From Betaproteobacteria bacterium (lineage in GTDB: Bacteria; Pseudomonadota; Gammaproteobacteria; Burkholderiales; SHXO01): DNA of 64,000 nt. Of the stretch, positions 19,599-49,549 are shown piece by piece. A program made the translations under genes and the position numbers. Below the pieces are notes generated by a model that made no database searches, had not been told where the DNA came from, and was given only the letters and a program-made list of their open reading frames with translations. Positions within the stretch are counted from its first letter, which is position 1. The number at the start of each line of letters is the position of its first letter. The DNA is taken from positions 1 to 64,000 of the forward strand of contig JANXRW010000157.1 of assembly GCA_025356655.1 (NCBI GenBank), in the 5' to 3' direction.

Positions 19599-19615
19599 CG
19601 GGTTCTCCTTCATGA

Positions 19616-21091: not shown

Positions 21092-21110
21092 CGGTGCGGC
21101 CGCCTGTCGT

Positions 21111-21944: not shown

Positions 21945-22005
21945 GGGTTGGGGTGGCGGGTACTGGGGAATCGACCGGACGCTGCCCAGCGTCCGGTCGC
22001 AGCGC

Positions 22006-25664: not shown

Positions 25665-25688
25665 GAGCGTGTTCCTTGTCTGGAGGAT

Positions 25689-26426: not shown

Positions 26427-26497
26427 GTGGGTTTTGGTTTCGTCAAGAGGGTGCAGCGCATAAAGCAATTCCCGCGCCGAACGCCGGATTTTGACGA

Positions 26498-27202
26498 TTA
26501 TTTCACTTGCGGCGCAATCCGGCCAGTCTGAAGTGATTCCTTGTAGTCCTGCACCAGGTTTTCCAACTGCACGCGTTTCAAGCGCGTGAAGGGTTCGTTG
26601 GAGAGCAAGGCGTCAAACACACCCTTGTTGCGGTAGCGCTCCAGCAACTCTGTTCCCACGCCATAGAGACTGGCATTGCGGTCCTTGCAGTGGCGCAGGT
26701 TGTCGCGCTCCGCGAGAACAGCAGCCGTCATGGCGGCCTTCTCAGCCGCAGCCGCTTCTGCGGCCGCCTGCAACTGCGCCTTCAGCGGCGGCACCTCGCC
26801 GCGGGCGGCGGTGAGTCCCCGCGCGAGGTCCTCGGCCTTCTCCGTCGCTGCACGCAGTTTGGCCGTCTCTTCCTCGAGTTGCTTCTTCAGCAATTCCAGG
26901 CTGCGATTTGCGCCCTTCAAGGCCCCGGCACTCCGAGCAGCCTCAGCCAGTTCTTTTTTCAGCTTCTCACCCGCAGCCTTCTCCGCGGTGAGCGCCTGCT
27001 CCAAGCGCGCCTTCTCGTCGTTAGCCTGGGCCACCTGGCCCTGTATCCGACGCAGCAGTTCACGCTCGCGCTTCTGTCCGGCATCGGGCTCGGCGGTCGC
27101 GCAAAACGCCTGCAAGCCCAGCCACAGGGCCAGCGCGAGGGGCAGCAGCCGGGGTGTATGGCCCGCGTTGACGGCGCGGGTCGCCTTGTGGATTTCGTCC
27201 AT
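26498..27202 (-). CDS. Periplasmic coiled-coil protein of the Ton-like cluster
   Basis: A 234-residue exported protein. A signal peptide spans about residues 1-37. A long coiled coil follows at 43-165, dominated by Ala, Glu, Lys and Leu heptads. The C-terminal domain at 170-234 is conserved-looking and ends in a compact helical region (RYRNKGVFDALLSNEPFTRLKRVQLENLVQDY). It lies 7 bp downstream of the putative porin and is surely co-transcribed with it. It may bridge the porin and peptidoglycan or TonB, but I know no characterised homologue. Confidence 0.75.
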   Translation of the reverse strand: MDEIHKATRAVNAGHTPRLLPLALALWLGLQAFCATAEPDAGQKRERELLRRIQGQVAQANDEKARLEQALTAEKAAGEKLKKELAEAARSAGALKGANRSLELLKKQLEEETAKLRAATEKAEDLARGLTAARGEVPPLKAQLQAAAEAAAAEKAAMTAAVLAERDNLRHCKDRNASLYGVGTELLERYRNKGVFDALLSNEPFTRLKRVQLENLVQDYKESLQTGRIAPQVK

Positions 27203-27209
27203 GGTGGGC

Positions 27210-28994
27210 TCAGAACCTCAGGTTCAAGTCCAACTGCAACACATCGATGGCCAGCGGCGGCCCGTCGATGGCATCCGCAGACATCCAGCGCAGCCGCACT
27301 GACGTGTTCTTGGCGATGCCGTAGGTGACGCCAACGGCATAGCCCTTGGTATCGGTACCGCCGAGGTGGAAATCCGGATCGTTGAAGGCGTCCAGGACCG
27401 CGTCGCGCTCGAGGTAGCGGTACATGGCGAAGACCTGCCATTCGTGGGCATTGGTCACAGCGGGATGGCCGAAGGTGAGCATCGCCTGATAACCATTGAC
27501 CCGCGGACGCGGCAACTGGTCGGCGGGCTGGCCGGTACGACGGGCAATTTCCGCCTGGTTGTAAGCCACGTTACGCACCCAGTCCCCGGCGAGTTTCAGA
27601 CGATAGGGTCGCAGCACGTCGAGTTCCACGGAGCCGTTGATGTCCGCCTCGCGGAACCGGGAGAGAACCCCGTACTTCTGCTGCGGCGGCCCGTTGGCCA
27701 CGTTGATGTCGAAGAGGGAATTGCCCTTTTGCAGGAAGGGGGGCAGGGTCCAGTCGTTGGACGAGAGCCCAAGCCCGTCGGGCCGCCCTTCGACATTCTG
27801 GTAGTCGTAGTAGGCCACTGCCAAGCGCGCGGTGTTGTCGCGAGCAATCTTCCAGTCCGCCCCCGTCTGCACGCCGTAGAGCGATTTCGCTCGGGGGGTG
27901 CCCGCGGACAAGCTGGCGCCGGGATTGGCCCCCTGGAGCAGGAAGGCGCCCGCCGTGAGCAACCCGGTGACGGAGGAACCTAGGTGCGGCCGGAAGGTGG
28001 CGGCAGCGCCATCGAAGTTGAGGTCGTTCCAGAACACCAGTTCGCTGCTCTCGAAGGGCCGCGGCATGCGACCGGCCTGCAGCGTCGCCCAGGATGCGGG
28101 CGTGTAGTTGACGTAGGCCAGATCCAATTGCACGTTGTACCCGGCGCCGTAGCTTCCAAGGTCCTGGTTGAGCGACACGGGGTTTTGGGCACTGCCCGTG
28201 GCCAGGCGCACGGTCGCACTAACCGAAGGAGTCAACTGCGCGGCCAGCCCGAGCCGTGCGCGAACCCGGCCCCAGTTCTCATCACTGGTGGTGTTGTTGA
28301 CCTTGGTGGAACCGGTCGCGCCTTGGAATTGGCTGGCGGTGACGTTGTCGATACCATAGCGGTTCGCCTGCGCCCGCAGCCGCAGGTCACCTAGCAAGGT
28401 GATGCGATCGAGCCAGGCGGGCAGGCTCTCGGGCTGCGCCCAGCGCTCCGCCTTGGCCTGAGCCATGACCTCGTCACGCACCTGTTCGCGTAGTTCCTTT
28501 TTCACGAATTCCGGCACGAAGGGGATACGCTGCACCTTACCTTCGGGCTTGGGCGTCATCTCCGCCGCCGCCTCGACCGCAGGGGCCACCCGGGGGGCAC
28601 TGGCTTCGGGCTGCAGCGCACTCTCCGGCAACTCCGTGCCACCCGCGGCGGATTGAAGCAGCGCATTGGCCTTGTCGCGGGTGAGCACGCCTTGGGCCAC
28701 GAGCAGCTTCAACAGGTTGTCGGTGAGGCCGCGCAGGCGCTTGAGTTCAGCGGAGGTGCCCCCGAGCGCTTCCGCGGCCGCGCCGTCTGCCGGGGCCGCA
28801 GCCAGCTTCGGCGAAGGGCGGCGCTGCCGCGACGGCGTTTTGGCAGGCTTAGCTCCCGCGGCGGGGAGCGAGTCGGCGGCGCGCTGGGCGGCTGGCGCGG
28901 GCGAGGCCTTGGCGCCGTTGGCGTCGGGCTGCTGGGCCCCAACAGCAGCGCTCAAGAGGAGCAGGGTAAGCGCGGCAGAGTGGCGGGCTGTCAT
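27210..28994 (-). CDS. Putative outer-membrane porin with N-terminal helical extension
   Basis: A 594-residue exported protein. Signal peptide 1-20, then a Pro/Ala/Lys-rich stretch to about 75, then a helical segment with SAELKRLRGLTDNLLKLLVAQGVLTRDKANALL. After a second linker comes a beta-barrel from about 195 to the terminal LNLRF. The LLVAQGVLTRDKANALL element followed by a barrel is typical of the 'putative porin' family (PF16930). It lies 96 bp after tonB. The position suggests it is the outer-membrane client or partner of the Ton-like motor, although it has no visible TonB box or plug domain. Confidence 0.8.
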   Translation of the reverse strand: MTARHSAALTLLLLSAAVGAQQPDANGAKASPAPAAQRAADSLPAAGAKPAKTPSRQRRPSPKLAAAPADGAAAEALGGTSAELKRLRGLTDNLLKLLVAQGVLTRDKANALLQSAAGGTELPESALQPEASAPRVAPAVEAAAEMTPKPEGKVQRIPFVPEFVKKELREQVRDEVMAQAKAERWAQPESLPAWLDRITLLGDLRLRAQANRYGIDNVTASQFQGATGSTKVNNTTSDENWGRVRARLGLAAQLTPSVSATVRLATGSAQNPVSLNQDLGSYGAGYNVQLDLAYVNYTPASWATLQAGRMPRPFESSELVFWNDLNFDGAAATFRPHLGSSVTGLLTAGAFLLQGANPGASLSAGTPRAKSLYGVQTGADWKIARDNTARLAVAYYDYQNVEGRPDGLGLSSNDWTLPPFLQKGNSLFDINVANGPPQQKYGVLSRFREADINGSVELDVLRPYRLKLAGDWVRNVAYNQAEIARRTGQPADQLPRPRVNGYQAMLTFGHPAVTNAHEWQVFAMYRYLERDAVLDAFNDPDFHLGGTDTKGYAVGVTYGIAKNTSVRLRWMSADAIDGPPLAIDVLQLDLNLRF

Positions 28995-29090
28995 GATTCG
29001 GGCGGGACTCTGAGTCGGGTTAAAGGGAATTCGCGCGGCGGGAGGATGGAAGCCCGGCCGCAGGACCTTGGTACACGCAGGGGAGCCAAG

Positions 29091-29804
29091 CTAGCCCGAT
29101 CCCTGGGACAACAGTTGCAGCTTCATGGGTTGCGGCATGTCCGCCGGCGGGGCCTGGGGCAGCCGCGCGACGCTCAGGTCGGTGCGGATGCTCTGGTCCA
29201 TGGTCTCGTTTCCCGTGCCCTTTAACAGCTCCACACGGGTGACGTGCCCGTCCGGGGAAATCCAGACCTTCGCCAGCGCCCGGTAGTTGGCCGTGTGCAG
29301 TACGGGGTTGCGCGCCACCTGATCCGTGAGATACCGCTCCACGGTGTGCAGATAGAGTTTGTATTTGAGCCGGTTACTGCCCCCCCCGCCACCGCCGCCG
29401 ATGCTGGTGATATCGCGCCCGCCCTTGCGGCCCTGCAGCCCGAAGCCGTCGCCCGAGCCGGAGCCCTCGGCGTCGACGCCGAGCGTCTCTGCGGGTGGCG
29501 CCGGGTCGGCCTCCTTCGGCTCATTTTTAGGCGTGGGGTCATCGATCTTGATCTCTTCCTTCTTGATCTCCGGCTCGGGCGGCTTCTCCTCCGGTTTCGG
29601 CGGCGGCGGGGGGGGCGGCGGGGGCAGCTTCAGCAGCGACACCTGGACGATCTTGTGCGCCCGGGAGCTCGGTTGGGTCAGGAGCTTCCAGACCATGAGG
29701 CCCAGGCCCACCACGACCCCCAGGGCGATCAGGGCACCGAGGATGCGTAGCGTCCAGAGCCTCGAGACCGACTGCGGTTTCTCTTCCTCCAGATCCCATT
29801 GCAT
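29091..29804 (-). CDS. TonB-like energy transducer
   Basis: A 237-residue TonB family protein that should carry proton-motive energy from ExbB/ExbD to the outer membrane. It has a short cytoplasmic tail, one transmembrane helix (about 18-41), a proline run followed by alternating Pro-Glu-Lys repeats (about 60-105), a Gly-rich stretch (about 120-145) and a C-terminal TonB domain (about 150-237). The start at 29804 excludes an unlikely upstream extension and lies 22 bp after exbD. The canonical SHLS motif of E. coli TonB is absent from the membrane helix. Confidence 0.9.
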   Translation of the reverse strand: MQWDLEEEKPQSVSRLWTLRILGALIALGVVVGLGLMVWKLLTQPSSRAHKIVQVSLLKLPPPPPPPPPKPEEKPPEPEIKKEEIKIDDPTPKNEPKEADPAPPAETLGVDAEGSGSGDGFGLQGRKGGRDITSIGGGGGGGSNRLKYKLYLHTVERYLTDQVARNPVLHTANYRALAKVWISPDGHVTRVELLKGTGNETMDQSIRTDLSVARLPQAPPADMPQPMKLQLLSQGSG

Positions 29805-29826
29805 GGCGGCGCTGCCCCCCCCCGCC

Positions 29827-30231
29827 CTACTTGACCAGCTTCTGGGTAACCAAGCCCAGCTGCGTGATATCCACCCGGCCAAGCAACTCCAGCACTTCCA
29901 TGACTTTGCCGTACTGCACCGTGGTGTCGCCCTTGACCACCACGGGGAAACTGGGGTTCGCCGCCTTCATGGCGCGCAGTCGCGACTCCAGTTCCTGGAC
30001 GGTCACCGGATAGGCGTCCAAAAAGATCTGCCCGTCCTCCCGGATAGTGATGGCCTTGGTGCTGGGCTTGGCCAGGCTGGGCGCGGAGCTTGCCTTGGGC
30101 AGGTTGACCTTGATGCCCTGCACGGACGCCGTGGTCATGATGATGAAGATGACCAGCAGCACGTACGCCAAGTCCAGCATGGGCGTGACGTTGATGTCGT
30201 CATAGGGTTGGTTTTCGCTCTGGACCTGCAT
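29827..30231 (-). CDS. ExbD/TolR-family proton-channel protein
   Basis: A 134-residue single-pass inner-membrane protein. The DDINVTPMLDLAYVLLVIFI segment contains the conserved membrane aspartate of ExbD/TolR (in MLDLAYVLL), the proton-carrying residue of this family. The periplasmic domain follows at about 45-134. It is 17 bp downstream of the ExbB gene and 22 bp upstream of tonB, so the three form a motor unit. Confidence 0.95.
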   Translation of the reverse strand: MQVQSENQPYDDINVTPMLDLAYVLLVIFIIMTTASVQGIKVNLPKASSAPSLAKPSTKAITIREDGQIFLDAYPVTVQELESRLRAMKAANPSFPVVVKGDTTVQYGKVMEVLELLGRVDITQLGLVTQKLVK

Positions 30232-30248
30232 GGCTCATTCCCCCGCGC

Positions 30249-31976
30249 TCAGGCGCTGTAGGTCTCCGCGAGACGCGACACCAGTTCGTCGCTGAACACC
30301 GCCATGTCGTTGGATATGCCCTTGATCCGGCTGGCCAGATAGTTGTAGCCGAAGAGCGAGGGGATGGCCACGCCCAGGCCTGCCACCGTGGCCACGAGGG
30401 CGGCGGCGATACCCGGCGCGATGGAGTTGACGTTGACGTCGCCCGCCGCGGCAATGGCGGCGAAGGTGATCATGACGCCCACCACGGTGCCCAGCAGCCC
30501 CAGGAAAGGCCCGCCGGAGATGGCGATGGTCAGCAGCACCATCTGGCTATTCAGGCGGGCGTTCTCGCGCACGGAGGTGGCATCGAGCACTGCCTTGATG
30601 GCGTTGAGCGCTTGCGGGGAAAGCCCGCGCGCCTGCGACTTGCTGTCCTGGGCGGAGAAACGCGTGGCGATCTCGTCCAGCGCCACCCGCCACATGCCGT
30701 GCAGGTTCGAGGCGCGGAACTGCTTGGGCGACTGGGACGGGACCTTGGTCGGGTCCAGCATCTCGTCAAGGTGCCCCTTGAAGTGCTTGAGGAAGCGGCG
30801 GTTTGAGCCATCGACCTGGATGACGAAACGCGCCTTGGTGATCATGACGACGAAGCTCACCACCATCATCACCATCAGGATGCCGATGACCACCCAACCG
30901 TCGATCGTTACCGATTTGAGCAGGATGGTGAAATAGGACTTGCCGCCGCCGTTCTGCTCTGTTTCACCGATTGCCGCCAGTTTGGTCTCCGAGACCAGCC
31001 CGGCGTAGCCGGCCTTGATCCAGTCCGGCGAACGGGCGGTGCCCGCCACCACGACCTCGTCCATGTCGCCCTTGAACCCCGGCCCGCCGATCGCCAGCGG
31101 CCCGGTCAGCGCCGGCAGCACGCTCGGCGCCTCGGCCTCCTGCTTACCGTCGACATAGACGATGAGTTTCTGCCCCAGCACCACGCTCACCGCGTGCCAG
31201 GAGCTTGGCGCGAGATCGGTCGTGCCCTGGACCTGGGCACCGGGCACCCGCACGCTCACCTTCGCGCCGTCGAGCCCCACCCAGAGCCCGCTGCCGTCAG
31301 CCGGAAAAACCAGCAGCGGCGCGCCCTTGCCCGCCTCGGCCGGCTTCACCCAGAGCGACACCGTGAGCCCGGCGCTGCCGGCTTTGAGCGTGGGCGCGGC
31401 CGGGATGTTGATCTGCGCCGAACCGTTGAAGGACACGCCGGCGCCGGAGAGCCCATTGGCCGCCGACGTGGCGGTGGACTCGCCGACCGGGTGGGCGTAG
31501 CTCGAGGAGTCCTGCGGCGCACCCTGCTTCTCGGCGAAGTGCAGTGCCAGCAGCGTGGCGGGTTCATGGGTGCCGCGGGCGTCGCTCTCCGCCACGGCCT
31601 TCTGGTTGCCGTAGTACAGGTAGATGAACTGGGCGTTGGAGTTCGGCCCCAGGTTGGGCACGCGCACCCAGACCAGTGCCAGTTCGTTGGTGGAGTCGAA
31701 GGACTCCACCTGGTATTTGAGGGGGGTCTTGTCGTCCTGAGCCACGAAGCGCAGGTCCGATCCATCGGGCTTGCCGTCCGGAAACGTGTAATTTCCTGTG
31801 TGCAGGCGCAGCAGCACGGGTAGGTCGACCAGCGCCTCCGTGGTAGCAGCCCCCGCCGGCGTGGTGTTCAGGGTGATTTTCTGGCGCAGGGTCCAGTCTT
31901 CGTTCCACCAGGCCTGGGCGAGACCAGGAAAGGTCGCAAGCATCGCGACCAGAACAATCAATTGCCGTAGCTTCAT
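30249..31976 (-). CDS. DUF2341/LamG-like-ExbB (MotA/TolQ/ExbB) fusion protein
   Basis: A 575-residue protein in which a proton channel carries a large exported domain. A signal peptide (1-22) leads into a DUF2341-type domain at about 23-115 (AWWNEDWTLRQKITLNTT, with YLYYGN near its end) and a LamG/concanavalin-like beta-sandwich at about 150-320 (SLWVKPAEAG, SSWHAVSVVLGQ). The ExbB part has membrane helices at about 361-380, 478-508 and 519-545 with the LLGTVVGVMITF signature. Ordinary ExbB proteins are about 240 residues. The ectodomain should face the periplasm. The gene starts 155 bp after tpsA and heads exbD-tonB-porin. Confidence 0.92.
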   Translation of the reverse strand: MKLRQLIVLVAMLATFPGLAQAWWNEDWTLRQKITLNTTPAGAATTEALVDLPVLLRLHTGNYTFPDGKPDGSDLRFVAQDDKTPLKYQVESFDSTNELALVWVRVPNLGPNSNAQFIYLYYGNQKAVAESDARGTHEPATLLALHFAEKQGAPQDSSSYAHPVGESTATSAANGLSGAGVSFNGSAQINIPAAPTLKAGSAGLTVSLWVKPAEAGKGAPLLVFPADGSGLWVGLDGAKVSVRVPGAQVQGTTDLAPSSWHAVSVVLGQKLIVYVDGKQEAEAPSVLPALTGPLAIGGPGFKGDMDEVVVAGTARSPDWIKAGYAGLVSETKLAAIGETEQNGGGKSYFTILLKSVTIDGWVVIGILMVMMVVSFVVMITKARFVIQVDGSNRRFLKHFKGHLDEMLDPTKVPSQSPKQFRASNLHGMWRVALDEIATRFSAQDSKSQARGLSPQALNAIKAVLDATSVRENARLNSQMVLLTIAISGGPFLGLLGTVVGVMITFAAIAAAGDVNVNSIAPGIAAALVATVAGLGVAIPSLFGYNYLASRIKGISNDMAVFSDELVSRLAETYSA

Positions 31977-32050
31977 GGGTGACCTGCTGTGGGAACCGGG
32001 ATTTAAGCCCAGCGATCTTGGGGCATGGATGTTGCAAGACTGTTACGACG

Positions 32051-32077
32051 GCGGGCAAGGGTAGCCTCCTTGCCCGC
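32051..32077. terminator. Hairpin between tpsA and the ExbB-fusion gene
   Basis: Perfect 10-bp arms GCGGGCAAGG (32051-32060) and CCTTGCCCGC (32068-32077) with a 7-nt loop, 54 bp after the tpsA stop on the minus strand. A T-run follows only on the plus strand. For minus-strand transcripts it is better read as an attenuator or processing site, which could lower expression of the Ton genes relative to tpsA. Confidence 0.6.
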
Positions 32078-32131
32078 TTTTACTCAATGCGGATACCCAA
32101 AAAAGGCCTTCCAATCAATGCCGTCCCGTGC

Positions 32132-35100
32132 TCAACGTGAACCGGCCCGATCGAAGTCCTCGTCGCCCAGTCCGACCACGTCCACGGTGATGAAAGAGGG
32201 GCGGAACTGCAGCTTTCTGCCGCCGTTCCCGCCCGCTGCCGACTGGGTCGCCTGCTCGGCCTGCCGGGAGGCACCCGCTCCGCTGGCCGCCGCACCCGCC
32301 ACACTGGCAGACACCGCCGTGGACACGGTCACCGGCACCCCGACGGACACCCCGCCGACGGCGATGTTCTCGGCGCCAACCACGCGCAGCGCCGCAATGG
32401 TCAGGTTACCTGCCGCCCGGATGCCCGCGTCGCCCGCGTTCACCTCTCCCTTGGGCGCGATCAGCGAGACGTCACCCGCGGGCGTCCCGGGAACCGTGAG
32501 CAATTCGCCGATCCCGGAACCGCTCACCACGCCGGATAGATCCACCTCCGTATTGCCGTTGGCATCGGTGCGGATCAGGGGCGGCGGCGCGGAGGCTGCC
32601 GTTTTCGCGCCCTTGCCCGCGTCGATGTTGCCCTGGGAGGCCCAGAGCAGGATGTCCCCACCAGCGAGCGTGAACACGCGCGAGGTATTGACCAGGAAAT
32701 CCTGGCCCACGACAGCGTTCACGCTGCCGCTCTGGGCGTTGCCCAGCGAGGGCGGCGACTCCAGAGGAGCGTCGAGCAGGAGCTTCGACAGGGCCCGGGC
32801 GCCCAGCCCGCGGTCAGCGACGATGCCCAGCACGGAGGCGAGGTCGGCCCCCTTGGCTGCGGCCAAGTCGGCCGGGGTGTTGATCACGCCGGCGTTGACA
32901 CTGCCGAAGGGCGTGAACAGGTTGATGTCGCCTCCGCGGATGGTCTTGATCTGGCTAAAGAAGACATTGAGATTACCGCCCTGCCCCGCCGCCGGTGTGC
33001 CGAAGAGCGTCGAGATGGCGTCGTAGCCCGGCTGGTAGGCTTCGGGACCGGTCTGCACGGCCGCCGCGCCCGCCATGCGCGCCTCCTGGTAGACGATGCC
33101 GCCGAGGAGCGGGAGCTGCAAGGAAACCGGCAGGCTGGTGAGGGCGCCGAAGGCAAGCACCGCCCTCTGTTGGGTCGCCGGGAGGACCTGGTAGAGACCG
33201 TAGAGCGAATCGAGTGCCTGTGCATCGGTGGCCGGTAATGGGACGGCCCCGCCGACCGCCGAGCGCAATCCGCTTGGCAGCCCCTGGTAGACGCGTAGCG
33301 GCCCCTGCGCGGCGAGCTCGTGTAGGTCGAGCGCGGCCTGGAAAAGGCGCGGGCTGGCCAGCCCGAAGAGTGCCGCGGCCTGGGTGTCGCTCGCCGGGGC
33401 AGCGCCACCGGAGGCGGCGACCAGATCCCCGCGTAGCGCCGCGGGGAGGGCCAGATAGGTCTTAAGCGCCGTGGGCAGGTAAGCACTCACGAGTGCGGCG
33501 CGCTGGTCCGAAGCCGATGCATTGGCCAGTAACGCCAGGGCTTCCCCATCGGTGGCGGGCAGGGCTTGTCCGAGGCTTGTCTGCACCGATGTGGGCAGCC
33601 GCTGGTAGAGCTTAAGCGGTGACGCCACGCCGGCCAGCAGCAGCACCGACTGCTGGGTGGCGGACGGCAAGGTGGCATAGAAGTCCAGGATTTGGCGCGC
33701 CGTCAGCTGACCCGGCCGGGACGCGTCAGTCTGAGCCAGCAACGCCGACTGCAGGGTGGCTGGCAAAGCTGCGTAGAGGCCGCTGGCCTGCGACGGGGTC
33801 ATGGCCAGTGCGGGCAGACCTCCGGTGACCAGCGTGGAGAGATAGTCCGCGGCCTGTTGGGCATGCCCGGCAGACGTGGTCAGCTTGGGATCGAGCAGAT
33901 AGCGGGAGGCGAAGGCGCCCGTGTTCATGGCCGTCGTACCGGCCAGCGTGGTGACCGCCGCGCCCACATCGGGCAGGAATGGGTTTTCCAGGTTACCCAG
34001 GCTGGTGATACCGAAGGCGTTACCCAGGTCGATGTTGCGCCCAGCCATGACCAGGAGTTGGCCGGGCCCCCCCACGCTGATCCCACTTGTGTTGGAGGTG
34101 AACAGGCCGGTGGGTCCGCGCGCGGTGTCGAAGAGGACGTCGCGCCCAGCCGACAGGGTCGTCACGTCGCTCGTCGCCACGTGTTGGATGTCGAGGGTCA
34201 GGTTGCGGATATCGCGGCCGGCGGTGATCTCCGCCCGCTTAGGCAGCACCGCGAAAGGCCCAGAGGCGCTACCCACCACGTCGCCCGTATTCGCCGTGAT
34301 CTGTACCGGCACGGTCAGGGTCAGCGTGCCGGTGCCAAGGGCGATATCCGTTGTGTCGCCCGCATGGAGCAACTGGGGCGCGTGGTGGATGATGTCCGCC
34401 GCGGGCTGGTCTACTAGGGCGAAGAACCCACCGTTGGGGTTGTTGGCATTCACGGCCTGGTCTATGGGCAGAAACTGGGAAGGATCCGCGTCCGCCATCA
34501 GGATTCGAGTGCTGGCGCCCTGGACGCTGCCCTGGGCCAGCAGGCGCAGGTTGCCGGTGGCCGAGGGCGCCAGGTCGAAGGAATTGTTGAGGACCACGTC
34601 CCCGGAAAAGGCCGTGGCCGTCAGTGTGCCCGGGAAGATCTGCGTGCCGAGCCGCCTCGATGCCGCCAGCACGACGTCCTTGGGGAAGAGCGCGGAGAGC
34701 ACCCGGGGGCTCGGGTCCAGGACCACGTCGCCCCCAGCCGACGCAATAGCGATGCCGCTGGTGGCCCCGTAAAGGAAGAAGTCGCCTGCGGCGGGTGCCG
34801 AGGGTCCCCGGGGCAGGGCCGTGGGGGCGTATACGGTCTCTAATCCGGCGCTGTTACGGGCGTTGAATTGCACCTGCCCCTGTCCCAGCGCAACGATGGG
34901 ATAGGCGACGGCGACAGCCCCTCCGTCGAGGAGATCGTGGCCCGAGATCGCGCCCCCGGCGGAGACCCGCCCAGCGCCCAGCCCCACGTAGAAGACACCC
35001 GAGATCACATCCTGGCCGGCCCGCAGACTCAGATCGCCGCCGCCGCGGACCACCAGCGTCTGGGTAGGGTCACCCGGCCCGGTGCCGGTTAGCCGCCCGT

Positions 35101-38100: not shown

Positions 38101-41100
38101 TGATCGAGCCGCCGGCGCTGGCGATCGAGAGGCGCGCGCTGGGGTCGACCAGGAGCACGGCGCCGCCCTGGCTGTTCGAGCCCGAGCGCAGGAGGCCGGC
38201 TTGGCCGCCCGTGGAGAGCCGCAGCAGCGCGCCGGGGCCGATCAGGTAGCTGGGCGCACTGCCTGCGTAGACCCCCTCGGCTTTGACCGCCGCTCCGGCG
38301 GCCAATGTAAGCTTCCCGCTCGCCACGAGCAGGACTTCCGCAGCGGCGAGCGGATGAGCGGAACTATTGGCCACCAGCACATCCGTGCTCAGCACGTCGA
38401 CGCGCTGGCCGGAGCCGGTGGCTGCCTCGCGCCAGCCGCCGAGCAGCAGGCTCGACACGCCGGTGCCGAGCAACTGATCTACGGAAAGGGTGAAGTACGT
38501 CGTGTCCGTCGGCGCAGCCGCGAGGTCGTCGACCAGGCGCAGCCTCGGTGCCACCAGATCGAATTGGCCACCCAGGCCGCCCGTTCCCGGCGCGAAGGCC
38601 ACCTGGCCGTCAAGCGTAAGACCGGAGCCCTTAACCTGCACCGCGAAGCGACCGGCATCCTGCGGCAAGCGCGGCCGGTCGACGCCCGCGAGCGCGGCGG
38701 CCGCAGCGAAGAATCCGTTGCCCGATGTCTCGTTGAACTGCGACTGGCTGCGCAGAACCACGCCCGGCGTCAGCAGGAAACCGGAACTGCGCGCGTCCTG
38801 GACCGGGGTACCGGCCACCGCGCGATACCCCGCGATTAAGCTGGAGCCGTCCGCGGTCTGCTGGTTGGCCCGCGCGAGCCGGTCGGTTGTTCCCGCCACG
38901 GCGGTCAGCGCAAATCCACCGGGCAGCAGGGCGTAATGCGCGGGCAGGAGTGTGTAGGTGCCGGCCGGTAAGCCCGGCGCGCCACTGAGATAGACACTGT
39001 CGCCGGGACCCAAGCCGGACCCTGCGCCGTACTGGAAGTCACGGGGCGCCACACCGTTGACGAAGCCCGGCAGTACGGCCCAGGTCGTGCTTGCCGCGAG
39101 TACGTCGCGCGACCCGCCGGGCCCGGGGCTAAACTCGTAGGCGTAGAGATTCCCGCCCCCGGAGACATCTACCCGCGCGCCACTGTTAACGGTCACGCTG
39201 GCCCCAGTGAGTTCCACGGCTTTGGTGGGTGGCGTGGAAATAACCTGCGTGAAGTCCGCGTAGGCGTAGATCCACGTGTTGCCGTTCTGCGTGCTGCCGT
39301 AGGGGATGAGATGGCCATCGGCGGAAACCGACGTGAGGCTGCCGGCGGCAAGGGTGAGTGCCCCCGCGGCGTCGAAGCTGAGGGTCCCCAGCGGGGCCCT
39401 CAACACGGCGCCCTGTTTGATGTCGATGACCGCCGCGCTCACCGTCAAGCTGCCCCCTGCCGAGAGGGGGAAGGGGGAACTCGTCCCACCGCTGCCGGCA
39501 AAAGAGACCTGCGCCCCGGGGGCATCGATACGGAAGTTGCTGTTCGTGCTGGGGTAGACCTGCTGTGCCAGGAAGGCGATGTCCCCAGCGCTGGCCAGGC
39601 GACCGTCGACGCTGAGGGCCGTGGCCGTGCTGCCCTGCCCAGCGGGAGCGATCTCCACCCCATTGAACCGGATGTCCTGGCCGCTGGAGAGGCGGGTGGA
39701 GGCAACCGAACCGATGGTTACGCTGCCCGTCAGGTCCACGAGTTGGGTGGCTTGGACGTCGAGTGTGCTACCGCCAACCGGGGGGGTCGCGAGCCCCGCG
39801 CTTTGATAGACGGGATTGCTATTGCGCAGTTCCACATAGCCCGTGGTCGCCACGCGGCCGTCGGCCGGATTGGCGCTGCGGGCGAGCGACCCGAGCCAAG
39901 CGCTTACCGCGCTGTGATCCTCGCCGGCAGCCTGGATCAGCGGAGTGTCGAGGGTAAGTGAAATCCGGGGCGCGAACTCCAGATTGCTCCCCAGCACGAT
40001 ACGGTCGCGGGCCATCAAGCTGACACGGTCAAAGCCGCCTGCCGTGATGGCCGCGGCCGGGACCAACGCCATCCCGTTGACGCTCGTCTCGACGCCCGCG
40101 GGGGAGAGCGTGGAGGCCAAGCCGGCGGGAAGCACGCCGTTGCCATCCCCCAGGCCAAGACCGGCGGGAAGGCGGCTGCTGGGGTTCATGGTCAGTACGA
40201 GCACGCGCTCGGCCAGCCCCGTCCCCGCCGCATTGCGGGCGTAACCCACCAGATTCGACAGCGCGCCGGCGTCGTTTCCGGGCTGATCGGCCCGGTCGAT
40301 GGATAGGCTCAGGGTGCCGCCCGCGGCGCCGCTACTACCCGCCCGAGCGCGCAGCCGACCCGCGAGGAGAATTCCCTCGCGCGCACTCAGGCTGATGCTG
40401 CCCGCATTGGAGCCCACGGCCGTGGGCACCCGCTGCGTGAAAAGCCCCTGAGCAAGGGGCAGGTCCACTACCGCGCTGCCACCGGAGACATCCACCAGAG
40501 ATCCCGCCTGCGTGATCAGGTAGCCCTGATTCGCGGCAATGTTCACGCGCCCACCCGTGAAGACCGAACCCACCGCCGCGCCCGTGGCATCGGGGTAGAC
40601 GCTACCCACGCCCGCAGCATCGACCCGTGCCGTGTTGCCCAGGATGATCGCTTGGGTAGCATCAAAGATGACTTGGGTACCGCTCTGAGCAGCCGCGGTC
40701 ACGTCCTGGGAAGAGCCCAAAGTCAAGGAGAGCAGCCCGCCCGGGGCCCGGAGTGTCCCCAACAGGCTCACCTGATGACTGGCCGAGAGGTTGATACTCG
40801 CCCCCGGATCCACGGTGATGGAGGACTGGGCGTCCACGCGGACGCTGCCGTCGGCAGCATCGCTGAAGGTGTAGCTCGAGCGACTCGCACGCAGGCTGAT
40901 GCTCGTGGGCGCGCGTGTGACCGGCGCGCCGATGGCAGCCAGCGTCACCGCCTGGAACACACTGTCCAGGGCCGTCCCGGAGACCTGAAAGCGGGCGTCA
41001 GGGCGGCGCTGGTAGGTCTGCGCCAGGGGTTGGATCACCGCCCTTGTCACCACAACGCGATCGAGCCCGGAGATGCTGTATTGGGTAAACCCGCCGGTCT

Positions 41101-43861
41101 GAAAGAAGGTGGGATCGAGCACCAGCTCGCCCGGCAGGCCATCCGGGGTGCCGCCAAGGGTCAGGTGGCCTGCACTCAGGGTCAGACTGCCGCCCACCCC
41201 CGCGGAATAGGCGCGCAGCGCCCCGCCCAGGACCACGGTGCCGGTGCGCGGCGCCCCGGAGTCCACATCCTTGCCGGTGGCGGCGTCACGGTTGCTCTGC
41301 AGGGTAATGGAGCCCGCCGCGCCGGCGCTGAAGCTGCCGTTACTCTTTAACTGCCCGCCCCCGGAGACGTCGATGACGGAGCCCTGGCCCAGGGTCACCG
41401 AACCCAGAGCGATAAAGACGGCCTTGCCGCCGGTGATGTAAACGGGTGCCGGCGACGCGCCGGCGATCAGGTCGGCGGCGTCGTTCACCCAGCGCCCGGC
41501 GAGATCAAGCCGAACGCCGTCGGCGACGGTGATGCCGATGGTGCTCGGATCGGGGTTCAGTGGCGTGGCGCTGGCCTTGAGCGTCAGACTTCCGCCGGGA
41601 AGCGACAGGCTGCGTTCGACGCTCACGCGGCTACCCCAGAGGCTTAAGGAAGCGCCGGGCCGGAACGCAAGCGCCTGGCCGGGCAGGATGCGGATGGTGC
41701 CGTTGGTGTTCACGGACAGGACGGAGAGATCGGAGAGCTGGTCCGCACCGAGTAAGAGCGTGTCCTGGGCCAGCGAGGTATCGCCCACCGGACCGGCGCT
41801 CATGTCTCCCAACAGAACCCTGGCATTGAGGATTTGATTTTCGTCAGGCGGATTGGGGGCACTGCCCAGCGAAAGCGACGCCCCGAGGGGACGGCTCGCC
41901 GCCGTGCGTTGCAGAGCCCCCGCAATCACCGCGCCCTTGATACGGCCTGCGAGCGCAATGGACGGTGCGGAAATGCTTAGCTGGCCGGCACTCGCTCCCT
42001 GGGTGTAGCCTTGCTCGAAGGTGCCGAGCGCGAAGGGCATGTTGAAGGTTCTGGTCACACCCCACTTGGGATCGCTGCGCGTGATGCGATCGGCGAAACC
42101 GCTGTAGGCACGGTCGGGGGTGGCCACGGAAATGTCCACCACCTGCCCGTTGGAGATCAATTGCGTGGTCTTCAGGTAGCCCGCAAGGTACTCCACCCTC
42201 CCGCCGGAGAGGTCCACGGTGGCCGTGGGCTGGACGAGCACATTGCCCGTGGAGTTGACCGTCAGCGTGCCCCCGGTGGCCATTTTCTCCAAAACGGTGC
42301 GGCCGATTTGGCTGGCGTAGCCGGAGACGTCGGCCAGGCAGGTGCCCACCTGGCCGTTGCAATTCGCGCGCACGTCGAAGTAAACGGTCTGACCACGCAG
42401 AAAACTGCTCCGCAGCAAGGGTGAATTAGCGAGTTCGGGGCCGCGCAACTGAGCGGCAACGGAGTTGCGCGACATGCTGATCTGCGCCACCGCCTCGCCG
42501 GCACGCTCAGTGCTGGTGGAACCGCTGCCGATGCCGCTCAGGTCGATCAGCGCCTTGGGGTCCACCAGGACCAGGCGCGGATTGTCGGGCGTCTGGGTGC
42601 CCGGCAGCAAAATGGCCTCCAGGGTCATCGACGCATTGGGCGACACCACCCGGGCAGCGGACGCCACCCGCACTTGGTCGCCCTTCAAGACAATGACCGA
42701 GGGACGAAAGGTCTGCAGATCAGTGAGCGTGGCGGGGTCGTTGGATTCCGGCAGGATCACCGTGCTGCTGCCGCTACCCAGCGTCACCGTACCGCCCTCG
42801 GTGGGGCTGACGAAGTGGGTCGCGGTGTCCACTACCGGCGGGAGGCCACCGCTGCTGAGCGACTGGGCGCGCAGGTAAACGGATCCGTTGGCATTGACCG
42901 AGGTCGTGGCAAACACCAATCCGGATTGATTCACCGCCAGCCCCACCATGGCCACGTTGCCACGCCGCGACAGGATTCGACCGGTGGGCGCGTTCGTCAC
43001 CGTGCCCGTGCCCGTGGTCGCGGCCGAGACGCTGGCGGGCAGGCTGACCTGCGTGGTGCGGTCGTTGTCCACCTCCACCACGATCCCGCGCACGTTCGGG
43101 TCGCTGCTCGCGGCGAGATAAACCTTCTGCCCGGCCGCCAGGATCACCTGTCCATCGGGCGCGCTCAAGCTACCCGCATTGGAGACCACCGGGGCGAACA
43201 TCATCACCTTGCCGCCACTGGCGGTGGTGATGTTGGCACCCGCGTCCACCTGGATGTAGGCCTTGCTCCCGGGCGATCCCTGAACGCTGGTGAAGGCGGC
43301 CGCGCCGTCACGCGCGGAGAGGATCCCGGCCTTGAAGACGGTGGGGCTCAAGTCCAACGTGGAGACCAACAACGAGCCCACGTTGACACTCGCATGCTTG
43401 CCAAAAAGAATGCCGTTTTGATTCAGCAGGTAGACCTGCCCCCGGGCATTGATGCTGCCGAAAATAGTGCTCGCGTTCTGGTCGAAAATTCGGTTGAGCG
43501 CGATCCATGTGCTGTCCCGTTGGTTGAAGGTGATGCTCTCGCCAGCGGCCAGGTTGAAGCGGTCCCAGTTGAGCGTGGCCGAGGGTGCGGTCTGGTTGAT
43601 CACGAGCGACTTGGCCGTGGAGTTTCCCAACGCGGCGTTCGTGAACTGCAACTGCCCCAGTTTGTATTGCGGCACCAGCCCGGCGGGTATAGTTGGCGCG
43701 GCCGAGGCAACTCCCAGGCCCGCAGCGAGCAGCGTGGCGAGCAGGGTCATCCGCACGAGAGGAGATTTGCCCCGGGCGCTGTGGCTGCGGGCGCATTCGG
43801 GAACCGGGACCTTCATCTCATGCAGGCGGCTTTGTACCAGGCGATAGCAGCGGCTATTCAT
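32132..43861 (-). CDS. Giant filamentous-haemagglutinin-type exoprotein (TpsA)
   Basis: A 3909-residue secreted protein, the cargo of the TpsB gene just upstream. Residues 1-32 form an extended signal-peptide region (MNSRCYRLVQ...ARSHSARGK), followed by the leader ending near VASAA. The TPS secretion domain at about 55-330 contains LLNQNGILFG, the usual anchor motif. A long right-handed beta-helix of degenerate Gly/Ala/Val/Ser repeats follows. A Thr/Val-rich linker occupies about 2490-2600, and an alpha-helical repeat block lies at about 3345-3595. A DUF3739-like region at about 3610-3850 contains GGDINLFTPFGSVNAG. No PEP-CTERM signal and no CdiA-type toxin end are visible. The uniform frame over 11.7 kb argues for a functional gene. 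Confidence 0.95.
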   Translation of the reverse strand: MNSRCYRLVQSRLHEMKVPVPECARSHSARGKSPLVRMTLLATLLAAGLGVASAAPTIPAGLVPQYKLGQLQFTNAALGNSTAKSLVINQTAPSATLNWDRFNLAAGESITFNQRDSTWIALNRIFDQNASTIFGSINARGQVYLLNQNGILFGKHASVNVGSLLVSTLDLSPTVFKAGILSARDGAAAFTSVQGSPGSKAYIQVDAGANITTASGGKVMMFAPVVSNAGSLSAPDGQVILAAGQKVYLAASSDPNVRGIVVEVDNDRTTQVSLPASVSAATTGTGTVTNAPTGRILSRRGNVAMVGLAVNQSGLVFATTSVNANGSVYLRAQSLSSGGLPPVVDTATHFVSPTEGGTVTLGSGSSTVILPESNDPATLTDLQTFRPSVIVLKGDQVRVASAARVVSPNASMTLEAILLPGTQTPDNPRLVLVDPKALIDLSGIGSGSTSTERAGEAVAQISMSRNSVAAQLRGPELANSPLLRSSFLRGQTVYFDVRANCNGQVGTCLADVSGYASQIGRTVLEKMATGGTLTVNSTGNVLVQPTATVDLSGGRVEYLAGYLKTTQLISNGQVVDISVATPDRAYSGFADRITRSDPKWGVTRTFNMPFALGTFEQGYTQGASAGQLSISAPSIALAGRIKGAVIAGALQRTAASRPLGASLSLGSAPNPPDENQILNARVLLGDMSAGPVGDTSLAQDTLLLGADQLSDLSVLSVNTNGTIRILPGQALAFRPGASLSLWGSRVSVERSLSLPGGSLTLKASATPLNPDPSTIGITVADGVRLDLAGRWVNDAADLIAGASPAPVYITGGKAVFIALGSVTLGQGSVIDVSGGGQLKSNGSFSAGAAGSITLQSNRDAATGKDVDSGAPRTGTVVLGGALRAYSAGVGGSLTLSAGHLTLGGTPDGLPGELVLDPTFFQTGGFTQYSISGLDRVVVTRAVIQPLAQTYQRRPDARFQVSGTALDSVFQAVTLAAIGAPVTRAPTSISLRASRSSYTFSDAADGSVRVDAQSSITVDPGASINLSASHQVSLLGTLRAPGGLLSLTLGSSQDVTAAAQSGTQVIFDATQAIILGNTARVDAAGVGSVYPDATGAAVGSVFTGGRVNIAANQGYLITQAGSLVDVSGGSAVVDLPLAQGLFTQRVPTAVGSNAGSISLSAREGILLAGRLRARAGSSGAAGGTLSLSIDRADQPGNDAGALSNLVGYARNAAGTGLAERVLVLTMNPSSRLPAGLGLGDGNGVLPAGLASTLSPAGVETSVNGMALVPAAAITAGGFDRVSLMARDRIVLGSNLEFAPRISLTLDTPLIQAAGEDHSAVSAWLGSLARSANPADGRVATTGYVELRNSNPVYQSAGLATPPVGGSTLDVQATQLVDLTGSVTIGSVASTRLSSGQDIRFNGVEIAPAGQGSTATALSVDGRLASAGDIAFLAQQVYPSTNSNFRIDAPGAQVSFAGSGGTSSPFPLSAGGSLTVSAAVIDIKQGAVLRAPLGTLSFDAAGALTLAAGSLTSVSADGHLIPYGSTQNGNTWIYAYADFTQVISTPPTKAVELTGASVTVNSGARVDVSGGGNLYAYEFSPGPGGSRDVLAASTTWAVLPGFVNGVAPRDFQYGAGSGLGPGDSVYLSGAPGLPAGTYTLLPAHYALLPGGFALTAVAGTTDRLARANQQTADGSSLIAGYRAVAGTPVQDARSSGFLLTPGVVLRSQSQFNETSGNGFFAAAAALAGVDRPRLPQDAGRFAVQVKGSGLTLDGQVAFAPGTGGLGGQFDLVAPRLRLVDDLAAAPTDTTYFTLSVDQLLGTGVSSLLLGGWREAATGSGQRVDVLSTDVLVANSSAHPLAAAEVLLVASGKLTLAAGAAVKAEGVYAGSAPSYLIGPGALLRLSTGGQAGLLRSGSNSQGGAVLLVDPSARLSIASAGGSIIADATGTVTLQGSSIQSPAGAALRVGSAGISFAAAGVTPASTGVVLNATDLQALALSDLSLVSYGTVDFYTGPDGKLQVGGASLRSLQIDAAGLVGHGGGVVTLQAASLRLGNTGAGSDSASDLGTAQLRLVAGNVELFSAGSVTLQGFTDATVDAAGQILASGAGSFRQNGGSLSLLATRITAGAGSSYRVEALGALRTGFSTQTALSLPANTPGGSLTLKGPSIEQGGNIDLPAGLVSLEATTGDIVLDAGSRIAAGGFLRQYQGTTAAAAAGRVALTADQGSVGLLSGAVVDVSAQGGADAGQLILSAVHGTVQLDGTLHGAAVQVAGASLPALQGSLSLDLGSMAGTFGGLAQAGAEFTQAFSLRLRSGDLTLNAGVTAQNIDISLDDGNLAVVAKLDATGAKGGQINLFAGQQNASGKGSLTLETTAVLNAFSTLGSVDANGSGTQGAGGNVTLGIASSAGNPGPGQQILLKDGARIDVHEATNANPGQILLRAPRLNAAGASAGDGVAVSVTGTPVLQAGGGEVVVEAVKTYAPLATVGGVKIINTAKTGVVTVGFEVPLLGYSVSTKTTQVTQTTTTKVVSTAVTDPKTQKVATTTKPAVVTKTTSTPSTSVATDPGLAADAGSTTPVVSTDTPPATVSTTSSASGNSVTTTTVTVATTTTTTATRSFSAVYAASPDLDADNRAFMSNAPTILGAMAIPNAHLRPGVEVVSSGDMTVSVNEANSAAAGKRGWNLADWRYSVPGTSVQEPGVLTLRAAGDLSINGSITDGFSAKNVNLSQWALQGGDSWSYRFTGGAALAAANPLATLGTQAAKTQATKGSVIFSVARTGSDTDPALSLVRTGNGFINVSAALDVRVNSGAAVYTAGVPDATLVSGAFAHRGGSAGNDAGIWPTQGGAIRVSAGRDVVGTTPQQLVGAWLSESGVVNTNGDGTQTYTVNPAWWPVFSNYHPLISGTSTDPLKRGAEFSFAALGGGDVSVVAGGNLDNLSAAVVSNGRLTGTGPGDPTQTLVVRGGGDLSLRAGQDVISGVFYVGLGAGRVSAGGAISGHDLLDGGAVAVAYPIVALGQGQVQFNARNSAGLETVYAPTALPRGPSAPAAGDFFLYGATSGIAIASAGGDVVLDPSPRVLSALFPKDVVLAASRRLGTQIFPGTLTATAFSGDVVLNNSFDLAPSATGNLRLLAQGSVQGASTRILMADADPSQFLPIDQAVNANNPNGGFFALVDQPAADIIHHAPQLLHAGDTTDIALGTGTLTLTVPVQITANTGDVVGSASGPFAVLPKRAEITAGRDIRNLTLDIQHVATSDVTTLSAGRDVLFDTARGPTGLFTSNTSGISVGGPGQLLVMAGRNIDLGNAFGITSLGNLENPFLPDVGAAVTTLAGTTAMNTGAFASRYLLDPKLTTSAGHAQQAADYLSTLVTGGLPALAMTPSQASGLYAALPATLQSALLAQTDASRPGQLTARQILDFYATLPSATQQSVLLLAGVASPLKLYQRLPTSVQTSLGQALPATDGEALALLANASASDQRAALVSAYLPTALKTYLALPAALRGDLVAASGGAAPASDTQAAALFGLASPRLFQAALDLHELAAQGPLRVYQGLPSGLRSAVGGAVPLPATDAQALDSLYGLYQVLPATQQRAVLAFGALTSLPVSLQLPLLGGIVYQEARMAGAAAVQTGPEAYQPGYDAISTLFGTPAAGQGGNLNVFFSQIKTIRGGDINLFTPFGSVNAGVINTPADLAAAKGADLASVLGIVADRGLGARALSKLLLDAPLESPPSLGNAQSGSVNAVVGQDFLVNTSRVFTLAGGDILLWASQGNIDAGKGAKTAASAPPPLIRTDANGNTEVDLSGVVSGSGIGELLTVPGTPAGDVSLIAPKGEVNAGDAGIRAAGNLTIAALRVVGAENIAVGGVSVGVPVTVSTAVSASVAGAAASGAGASRQAEQATQSAAGGNGGRKLQFRPSFITVDVVGLGDEDFDRAGSR
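33080..33830 (-). repeat. Alpha-helical repeat block near the TpsA C-terminus
   Basis: Inside tpsA (residues about 3345-3595) the beta-helix pattern gives way to imperfect repeats of about 25-45 residues. They follow the scheme Y-x-x-L-P-x-x-x-Q-x-x-L with a later A-L-x-x-L, for example LYAALPATLQSALLAQ, LYQRLPTSVQTSLGQ and VYQGLPSGLRSAVGG. Roughly seven units can be counted. This is unlike the rest of the protein and may be a binding or retention module. Confidence 0.7.
36065..36400 (-). repeat. Thr/Val/Ser-rich low-complexity linker in TpsA
   Basis: About 110 residues of TpsA (about 2490-2600) consist largely of Thr, Val, Ser and Lys, including runs such as TTTTT. The coding DNA is a matching GT/GG-rich low-complexity stretch. 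It separates the long N-terminal beta-helix from the C-terminal third. It could be a flexible or glycosylated linker and could also be a slippage hotspot. Confidence 0.8.
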
Positions 43862-43922
43862 CGTCTCGGGCTCCGGGGGCTGGTGCGTTCTGGGTCAGGG
43901 GCCAGCTCTTTGGCGGCGGGCT

Positions 43923-45551
43923 TCAGAATTCGTAGGCCAGCTGGAACAGCAGCCGGTTCGTGTTGGCAGTGGTGCGCACGCCATCTTCCAGTACGTGCGC
44001 CAGATCCAGGCCGAGGGTGAATCCCGTGGAGGGCTTCAGGCGCAGGCCCACACCGGTGCTCAACAGGGAAAAGGAATACTGCTGGGGCGCAATGGGGTCG
44101 AGCACGCGTAGCCGGGCCCCATCGACGAAAACCAGCGCATAGCCGTTGGCGGTGCCCAGCCCCAGGCCGCGTGAGGGCGTGCGCAGCTCCAGCTTGGCGC
44201 GCAGCCCTATATCGCCTATGGCCTCGGCCTCCAGGTAGCCGCGCACGCTGTCCGCGCCACCGGCGACGAACTGCTCGTTGCTGATCAGAGGTCGGCTGGA
44301 GAATTGCCCGTTTACCGCGGCCACCACCACGAACTCCCGCGAGAGGTGCTGCTCGTACTGTAGGTCGGTGCGCAGGTGGAACCAGCTGGAGTCGGAATTA
44401 AACCGGTTGTTGTTGAAGTCCGCATCGTTGTTGCCGAGCAAGTGCCGCGGCGCGAAGCTGGCGCCGAAGGTGGCGCTGGTGGTGCTCTTCTCGCCGGCGT
44501 GGGAGAGTTGGACCTGGGCCAGTAGCGGGACGTAGCGGATGGGCGTCACGTCACCGGCTTGCCCGGGCACGGCCACCGTGCTGGTGAAATCCTTGTAGTC
44601 CGCACCCAGAGTAAAGGTGCCGTTGACGTCGCCCACCGGTTGGGCGTTGAAGATGGCGCGCACGCCGTAGATGTTGCCATTGCCCAGGACGTTCAGATCG
44701 CCCAGCGTTGCCACTGCGCTGCGCGAGCGCACGGCGTAGAAGGCGATGGCATTGGCGGTATGCGGCACGGGTACGACGTAGGTGCCACTGAGCGTACGCA
44801 CCTGGGTCAGATCCGCGGGCGTGGTCTGGTAACGCAGCGAGGCGCTGTGCTCGGCCTGCCATAGGTTGTCGTATTGGATCTGGCCCGACAGGCGCAGGGC
44901 CCGCGTGTCGGGGCTCGCGCGATTGTTCAGTTCCAGGCCGCCATGCAGCGGCAGTTTGTCTTCGACGCGTAGTTCCACATCCACGGTCCCGGGCGTGGCG
45001 CCTGCCTTGAGTACGGGCGTCACCTGGCGATCCGGCGTACGGTTCACCTCGCCCAATTGGCGCTGCACTTCCGGAAAGAGAGGAACACTGCCCACCGCCA
45101 ATTCGGGCACGCGGCGACGGATCTCGCCGCGATCGAAGTAGCGCGAGCCGGTAACCCTTAGCTCCGCCACCTTGCCTTCCGTGACCCGCAGGCGGACCAC
45201 GCCGCTTTGCACTTTCTGTTCGGGTACATCCACCAGCACGGTGGAATAGCCGGCCCGCTGGTAGGCCTGTTCCAGGGCTACACGCGCCCGCTCCACATCC
45301 TCGATGGTCTTGTCCTCGCCCATAAAGGGGTAGACGAGGCGCTCCACCTCGATCTCCGGGAGGCGGGAATTGCCTTCGACCTGGAATTCGAGGACGTCAA
45401 AATGGGGAATCGCCTCGGCGGCCGCGGCGATCGACGGAGGGGCCTCCCTGGCCAGTGCGAGCGAGCTCAGCCCGACGAACAAGAGCAGCAGCGTCCGTAG
45501 TGCCGGAGGCAAGAGGGTCAAATTCGATTTCACGATGGGTACGCCCCACAT
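43923..45551 (-). CDS. TpsB outer-membrane transporter (ShlB/FhaC/HecB family)
   Basis: A 542-residue Omp85-superfamily translocator for the adjacent TpsA. A signal peptide covers about residues 1-32. Two POTRA domains lie at about 45-125 and 126-200 (EFQVEGNSRLPEIEVERLVYP, then LRVTGSRYFDRGEIRRRVP). The 16-strand barrel follows, with the conserved VRGYLEAEAIGD loop-6 motif and a C-terminal Phe in LLFQLAYEF. I prefer the ATG at 45551. The tpsA gene starts 61 bp after its stop, so the pair is one unit. Confidence 0.95.
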   Translation of the reverse strand: MWGVPIVKSNLTLLPPALRTLLLLFVGLSSLALAREAPPSIAAAAEAIPHFDVLEFQVEGNSRLPEIEVERLVYPFMGEDKTIEDVERARVALEQAYQRAGYSTVLVDVPEQKVQSGVVRLRVTEGKVAELRVTGSRYFDRGEIRRRVPELAVGSVPLFPEVQRQLGEVNRTPDRQVTPVLKAGATPGTVDVELRVEDKLPLHGGLELNNRASPDTRALRLSGQIQYDNLWQAEHSASLRYQTTPADLTQVRTLSGTYVVPVPHTANAIAFYAVRSRSAVATLGDLNVLGNGNIYGVRAIFNAQPVGDVNGTFTLGADYKDFTSTVAVPGQAGDVTPIRYVPLLAQVQLSHAGEKSTTSATFGASFAPRHLLGNNDADFNNNRFNSDSSWFHLRTDLQYEQHLSREFVVVAAVNGQFSSRPLISNEQFVAGGADSVRGYLEAEAIGDIGLRAKLELRTPSRGLGLGTANGYALVFVDGARLRVLDPIAPQQYSFSLLSTGVGLRLKPSTGFTLGLDLAHVLEDGVRTTANTNRLLFQLAYEF

Positions 45552-45592
45552 CAAAAGGGCCACCCCCTGAGGAGCGGCCCGTCTTACCTGTC

Positions 45593-45618
45593 CCACCGGG
45601 ACCCGAAGGTCCCCGTGG
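45593..45618 (-). terminator. C(UUCG)G tetraloop hairpin upstream of tpsB
   Basis: In minus-strand RNA, CCACGGGGACC - UUCG - GGTCCCGGTGG forms an 11-bp stem with one mismatch and a very stable C(UUCG)G tetraloop. It lies between the stop of the binding-protein-like gene (45637) and the tpsB start. No T-tract follows, so partial termination or 3'-end protection of the upstream mRNA is the best guess. Confidence 0.55.
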
Positions 45619-49407: not shown

Positions 49408-49549
49408 GGCGGCTTGAAGCTCCCAGAGTCCTTCCGGCGGATCAGCCGGGCCCCCGGGACCCGGAGGCGTCCGGACCGATCCGGAGCCCTATGATGACCA
49501 GCGAACATGTCGAAAAGATGAACGCGAGCACGGGCGAGGCGATTTCGCG

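Follow-up and report, generated by a model that had tools for sequence, protein, structure and literature searches.

A two-partner secretion system encoded together with a Ton motor, and an exoprotein tail that may serve as the motor's handle to hold, tension or free the adhesin

The window analysed here is a stretch of 64,000 nucleotides (positions 1 to 64,000 of contig JANXRW010000157.1, assembly GCA_025356655.1) from a Betaproteobacteria bacterium of the Burkholderiales. It contains a block of seven genes that joins a two-partner secretion (TPS) system to a Ton-type motor: tpsB, tpsA, an exbB fusion, exbD, tonB, a Porin_5 gene and a coiled-coil gene follow one another in this order on the minus strand, as do all features of the window named below, with gaps of 61, 155, 17, 22, 96 and 7 bp. 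Coordinates and Pfam matches thus confirm the gene order, common strand and 7–155 bp spacing reported in a first-pass annotation of this DNA, which was made by a model from the letters. The seven genes stand as that annotation gave them, but they do not bound the block: the close-spaced run on the same strand continues beyond them, after 40 bp upstream and after 29 and 24 bp downstream.

The first two genes are an adjacent type Vb pair. TpsB (43923–45596) is an outer-membrane TPS transporter of the ShlB/FhaC family, with POTRA domains and a barrel (Pfam POTRA_2 5.7e-18, ShlB 3e-17), and TpsA (32132–43861) is a 3909-residue exoprotein with an N-terminal TPS secretion domain (42851–43642; Pfam TPS 4.3e-26) and, near its C-terminal end, DUF3739 (32330–32662; Pfam 1e-37), the conserved last part of the folded region. 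The exbB fusion (30249–31976) encodes a signal peptide, DUF2341 and a LamG-like domain (LamG_3), followed by an ExbB/TolQ proton channel (Pfam MotA_ExbB). It is followed by exbD (29827–30231; Pfam ExbD 3e-28) and by tonB (29091–29804, counted from a conserved ATG), whose product has a transmembrane anchor, a Pro-rich and then Gly-rich linker and a TonB/TolA-like C-terminal domain (TonB_2 9e-8). The block closes with a Porin_5 outer-membrane barrel (27210–28994; Pfam 3.5e-148), which has a conserved, probably helical N-terminal part, and with an exported coiled-coil protein (26498–27202) that has a conserved C-terminal ENLVQDYKESLQ region and by position is the counterpart of Pseudomonas aeruginosa PA0697. 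A Pfam scan found no plug-domain receptor within the operon, and the three plug-domain receptors of the genome (69% complete) each lie on another contig, in agreement with the first-pass annotation.

The motor looks functional, judging from its intact channel residues. The threonines of the ExbB motifs GLLGT and VATVAGL are kept without exception in the 56 aligned sequences that cover it, and the transmembrane Asp20 of ExbD is invariant (62 of 62 aligned sequences). The best scores of the two proteins are to TolQ, for the ExbB part, and to TolR. The AlphaFold model of TonB shows a membrane helix joined through a long disordered linker to an end domain with a pLDDT of ~90; Foldseek matched this domain best, within the PDB, to domain III of TolA and to the C-terminal domains of TonB proteins. 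The linker also carries a highly conserved Gly-rich stretch, LGVDAEGSGSGDGFGLxGRKGGRD, that is unusual for a TonB linker. DUF2341 heads have been listed in a stator survey as extra domains of unknown function on relatives of ExbB-type stators (PMC12505986).

The fusion and the DUF3739 type of TpsA occur together almost without exception. Among 399 Burkholderiales genomes scanned for the DUF2341–ExbB fusion and for DUF3739 (above the Pfam cut-off), 46 carry the fusion, 44 carry DUF3739 and 43 carry both (Fisher p = 6e-53, a value that overstates significance because the genomes are related, with the patchiness of the trait, found in 24 of 159 genera, as a counterweight). The three fusion-only genomes are fragmented assemblies (two of them 70–84% complete), the sole DUF3739-only genome carries its DUF3739 at a contig end, and near-complete assemblies almost never show one half without the other. 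Within the 43 genomes that have both, the pair lies on one contig in 41, within 20 kb in 39 and within 1 kb in 32. As a control, the TPS domain at large was found in 89 of 200 genomes, just 21 of which also carry the fusion; the association is therefore with the DUF3739 subclass and not with TPS at large. The link persists in genomes where the genes lie apart (G268, G609 and G544).

Neighbourhoods were counted at 66 independently fetched fusion loci, of which 62 have TPS genes, 62 exbD, 61 tonB, 57 Porin_5 (those lacking it being mostly cut contigs) and 50 the coiled-coil gene. A TonB-dependent receptor is near the fusion at only 4 of the 66, one of them unsurprising because its genome has 61 receptors, and we rejected a pairing of DUF2341–ExbB with such receptors. 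The first-pass annotation had taken DUF2341–ExbB units found mostly without TPS genes as an outcome that would speak against its proposal, and these counts show the opposite; 43 of the 46 fusion-bearing Burkholderiales genomes, moreover, carry a DUF3739-type TpsA. At the fusion locus of G268, TPS genes are replaced by a beta-helix protein, and the one DUF3739 TpsA of that genome is encoded elsewhere. The protein in question (L050, 5921–7612, minus strand) is a 563-residue right-handed beta-helix encoded after tonB, at the usual position of the porin. The Ton motor and the TPS genes thus form a unit that has been conserved and is inherited along with the DUF3739 subclass of TpsA, and their arrangement is not due to chance.

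TpsA proteins of this subclass share a distinctive tail. All 63 that were first collected, the window's included, have an Ala/Ser-rich linker beyond DUF3739, and in nearly all of them it leads to a tag of consensus PSF[IL][TS]VEV[LI]GFG, in which the conservation is 90% and 79% for V and 83% and 86% for G; the residues beyond the tag are mostly acidic. A few tags are degenerate, for example those of L084, L093 and L126. Across 70 TpsA the linker is 31–51 residues long (two are at 16), with a median of 41. In the window it comprises ~42 flexible residues rich in Ala, Ser and Gly (32201–32326; AlphaFold pLDDT ~25–35) and ends at the tag PSFITVDVVGLG (32165–32200), which we propose as the strand on which the C-terminal domain of TonB docks. 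AlphaFold prediction, with eight sequences only, shows the DUF3739 region as beta-rich (with a pLDDT mostly of 70–90 over most of it in the window) and the TpsA tail as disordered. The tag outscores all 100 shuffles of its own tail in 65 of 70 TpsA, with a consensus drawn from those same tails.

Cysteines are distributed unevenly along these proteins. Past the tag they are 35 times as frequent as elsewhere in TpsA (27 of 1463 residues compared with 87 of 164,135); they are absent from all 2805 linker residues and, where they follow the tag, are nearly always paired: 13 of 70 tails have a pair and one has a single cysteine. The paired tails come from alpha-, beta- and gammaproteobacteria. In HMW1 a C-terminal disulfide loop locks the end of the protein in the pore of its TpsB, and the C-terminal end of HxuA is likewise expected to remain in the periplasm (PMC5422565). 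It is chiefly because the cysteine pairs resemble this lock that we place the TpsA tail in the periplasm, the compartment of the TonB end domain. The parts of the system, their co-inheritance, the tag and the cysteine pattern are themselves features of the sequences compared.

Fusion loci are spread over Burkholderiales, Steroidobacteraceae, Methylococcales, Acetobacteraceae and Desulfobacula and occur on 11 plasmids, including plasmids of Klebsiella, Burkholderia, Cupriavidus, Variovorax and Methylosinus; the fusion is absent from all three sampled congeners of the window genome. A tree of 65 ExbB fusions places the window in a clade of 46 rows (clade A) in which tpsA, where nearby, directly precedes exbB, and none of which has VreA, a protein with an STN domain joined to a TonB-like domain, as Llamas et al. 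modelled. Nearly all VreA-bearing loci fall in a clade of 18 rows (clade B), in which tpsB adjoins exbB and tpsA lies apart; one divergent VreA row falls outside it. Genes like vreA–vreI–vreR adjoin the TPS–motor block in clade B, for example on Klebsiella and Methylosinus plasmids. The window, with its place in the clade without VreA, shows no such linkage, and a VreA query against its 69% complete genome matched only the window's own TonB. In clade B the tag is often duplicated on the TpsA tail; its second copy, VQVLGAG...LTxxER, was found only in genomes with VreA, which brings a second TonB-like domain. We rejected a strict rule that the second tag goes with VreA: the second tag is confined to VreA genomes, yet some VreA genomes lack it. 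Two further observations on these loci are that seven of them (L048, L085, L086, L104, L105, L106 and L167) have two consecutive exbD genes between the ExbB fusion and tonB, and that on the Klebsiella plasmid pMagicconchshell_02 a gene resembling tpsB is broken into two open reading frames (L165, 3584–5250).

We propose that the window encodes a TPS system with its own Ton motor, for which the tail of TpsA would be the handle used to hold, tension or free the adhesin, a reading that we rate only slightly short of an even chance. Stated more specifically, and held more tentatively, the inner-membrane motor would grip a periplasmic tail tag of a type Vb exoprotein and mechanically hold, tension or release it, so that the target of TonB would be the secreted chain rather than a plug receptor. 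TpsA would traverse TpsB and fold outside as a long beta-helix, while its last ~65 residues would remain below or in the TpsB pore. Proton flow through ExbB–ExbD would enable TonB to pull on this tail; the adhesin would thus be actively held, and could be unplugged, tensioned or freed from the pore. On the periplasmic side, the machine may be organised by the coiled-coil protein and the N-terminal part of the porin, and the DUF2341–LamG head of ExbB may sense or bind periplasmic glycan or peptidoglycan. In the sister clade, VreA may read the same TpsA tail, often through the second copy of the tag. The periplasmic position of the tail, its contact with TonB, and the direction and purpose of the pull are what we infer from the sequences, and the tag offers a concrete candidate for the contact.

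Several results weigh against this proposal. The tail of the window's own TpsA has no cysteine pair. A matrix built from 22 TonB boxes of receptors gives TpsA tails a median score of -0.1, no better than shuffled tails and far below the 2 to 20 of real boxes, each left out of the matrix in turn; a canonical TonB box was rejected on these grounds, and since the matrix fails to recognise the tag we avoid that name for it. A TonB that is dedicated to this system and divergent may bind a strand other than the canonical box. The correlation between VreA and the second tag fails for the G302 genus, G155 and Methylosinus, and with nearly all cases in one clade it amounts to about one evolutionary event. 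Mutants of P. aeruginosa in the corresponding tpsA, tpsB, tonB and PA0696 genes were as virulent as the wild type in zebrafish (PMC2729926). Finally, TonB pulls inward and therefore cannot simply push secretion. The first-pass suggestion that the motor acts on TpsA accordingly survives in part: the conserved tag and the cysteine pairs, which suggest that the tail is periplasmic, give it indirect support, the negative TonB-box test speaks against it, and extrusion, one of the roles it named, sits poorly with an inward-pulling motor.

Foremost among the rival readings is uptake through the porin, which we regard as unlikely. TpsA would then be a surface capture filament, for which HxuA and its ligand haemopexin are a precedent, and TonB would energise the passage of ligands, perhaps phosphate-containing substrates, through the Porin_5 barrel. 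The near-constant presence of Porin_5 in the operons fits this, as do phosphate connections: the P. aeruginosa block is controlled by PhoB and sigma-VreI and adjoins a secreted alkaline phosphatase system (PMC7035377, PMC2729926), alkaline phosphatase genes are present at a Methylomagnum plasmid locus, and a PBP-like gene at a Methylosinus locus. However, the phosphate link is regulatory and seen in only a few species, the motor persists in G268 and Methylomagnum with no Porin_5 neighbour detected, and the porin lacks a plug and a conserved exposed N-terminal box (a conservation comparison of relatives revealed no such conserved, exposed N-terminal motif on TpsB or the porin). The accepted view is that type V systems need no energy source (PMC5422565), and if either uptake or the mechanical hold on TpsA is correct, proton energy is used at one. 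Type Vb secretion is taught as free of ATP and proton-motive force, and the one-to-one motor would mean that at least this TpsA subclass uses proton energy for something. If the motor does grip the tag, TonB4 of P. aeruginosa would also gain a task and VreA a partner; the papers found assign a function to neither.

The tag might instead only stop or lock TpsA in TpsB, by binding to the POTRA domains or the barrel, with the Ton genes acting elsewhere, for example on the porin or the envelope. POTRA domains bind substrates by strand addition, and the HMW1-like cysteine pairs and the negative TonB-box result fit such a lock, but it leaves the tie between this TpsA subclass and a private ExbB–ExbD–TonB set unexplained, and we consider it distinctly unlikely. 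We give still less credence to a signal relay, in which the motor would use STN-type proteins and an ECF sigma factor to inform the cell of the state of TpsA (contact or release); the vreA–vreI–vreR-like genes beside the clade-B blocks, the domain structure of VreA and the second tag on many clade-B tails suit it, and the absence of VreA from all 46 tree rows of the window's clade tells against it. Very improbable, finally, is mere crowding of a spare TonB set that became linked to TPS genes by shared transfer. The patchy distribution and the plasmids indicate horizontal spread, which favours clustering, but the link holds in G268, G609 and G544, where the genes are apart, and near-complete assemblies hardly ever have one half alone.

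The gene directly upstream of tpsB (45637–47217, 40 bp gap) encodes an unclassified secreted protein with no Pfam or NCBIfam family. BLASTP matches it to the gene upstream of tpsB in genome G019 (2e-34) and on the Aquabacterium olei plasmid pTB101 (6e-19), and its relatives occupy the equivalent position in some clade-A loci; one is also present in G360. It has an SGTQ motif faintly like PstS-type binding proteins, and the protein may be a distant relative of binding proteins; with no family match and no similarity to the PBP-like Methylosinus gene, we rejected this assignment and keep it as a lead only. Farther upstream, the gene at 47377–48198 has a weak PEP-CTERM signal (E 0.007), and the G019 protein at the matching position (L063, 13523–14566) has a clear one. 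Type II secretion genes and a LuxR-type regulator follow (48628–59508), with a secretin (51239–53524), GspE (56082–57791), GspF (57791–58975) and GspG (58975–59508); the TPS–motor block likewise has type II secretion genes beside it in P. aeruginosa, where they are those of Hxc, and on a plasmid of Cupriavidus. Directly after the block lies an exopolysaccharide block of the exosortase type, EpsL-D-E-F-G (18708–26468), which opens with a CAAX-protease-related gene (25689–26468; NCBIfam TIGR03008, 6.2e-63) and an epsL-like outer-membrane protein gene (24387–25664; TIGR03014, 8.3e-79). One or both of these genes follow the TPS–motor block in ~16 Burkholderiales relatives; the epsL-like gene, present in ~14 relatives, is linked to the block and probably not part of the motor.

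Among known systems, Tol-Pal and the TolQR-type stators with DUF3450 or DUF2341 share with the window their TolQ/TolR affinity and extra-domain heads, but the partner genes here are TPS genes, with no Pal or TolB among them; tolB and pal gave no match in the scan of the operon genes, which included no search aimed at them. Classical TonB–ExbB–ExbD has the same motor parts, conserved channel residues and TonB/TolA-type C-terminal domain, and it differs in that the window operon has no plug-domain receptor, no canonical TonB box in the partners and a DUF2341–LamG periplasmic head on ExbB. HMW1 and HxuA of Haemophilus influenzae resemble 13 of the 70 TpsA compared in the cysteine pair near the end; in neither of the two is the TPS pair encoded with a Ton motor of its own, and the window's own tail lacks the cysteine pair.

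The closest counterpart, to which the Klebsiella quasipneumoniae plasmid locus led us, is the sigma-VreI (PUMA3) regulon of P. aeruginosa. There pdtA, pdtB, exbB2-exbD2-tonB4 and PA0696–PA0699 are under sigma-VreI and PhoB control, and PA0696 is a putative porin, PA0698 a YbjN-family protein and PA0699 an isomerase (PMC2729926, PMC7035377); the Ton genes of this block have been described as uncharacterised. Llamas et al. reported as early as 2009 that in several genomes TPS genes lie together with exbBD and homologues of PA0696 (PMC2729926). The pairing of motor and TPS is thus not new (PMC2729926, PMC7035377). The breadth of its occurrence, its one-to-one tie to DUF3739, which is not named in the literature searched, the conserved tail tag and the cysteine pattern were not found in the papers searched. 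Judged by gene content and by Klebsiella plasmid and other clade-B relatives rather than by the PAO1 sequence itself, the likeness extends to the order tpsB, exbB, exbD, tonB, porin and PA0697-type gene, together with a TpsA. In the window, by contrast, tpsA lies between tpsB and exbB, vreAIR and the adjoining YbjN gene are absent, and the locus belongs to the other clade, with a single tag on the TpsA tail and an eps/exosortase-type block linked to it.
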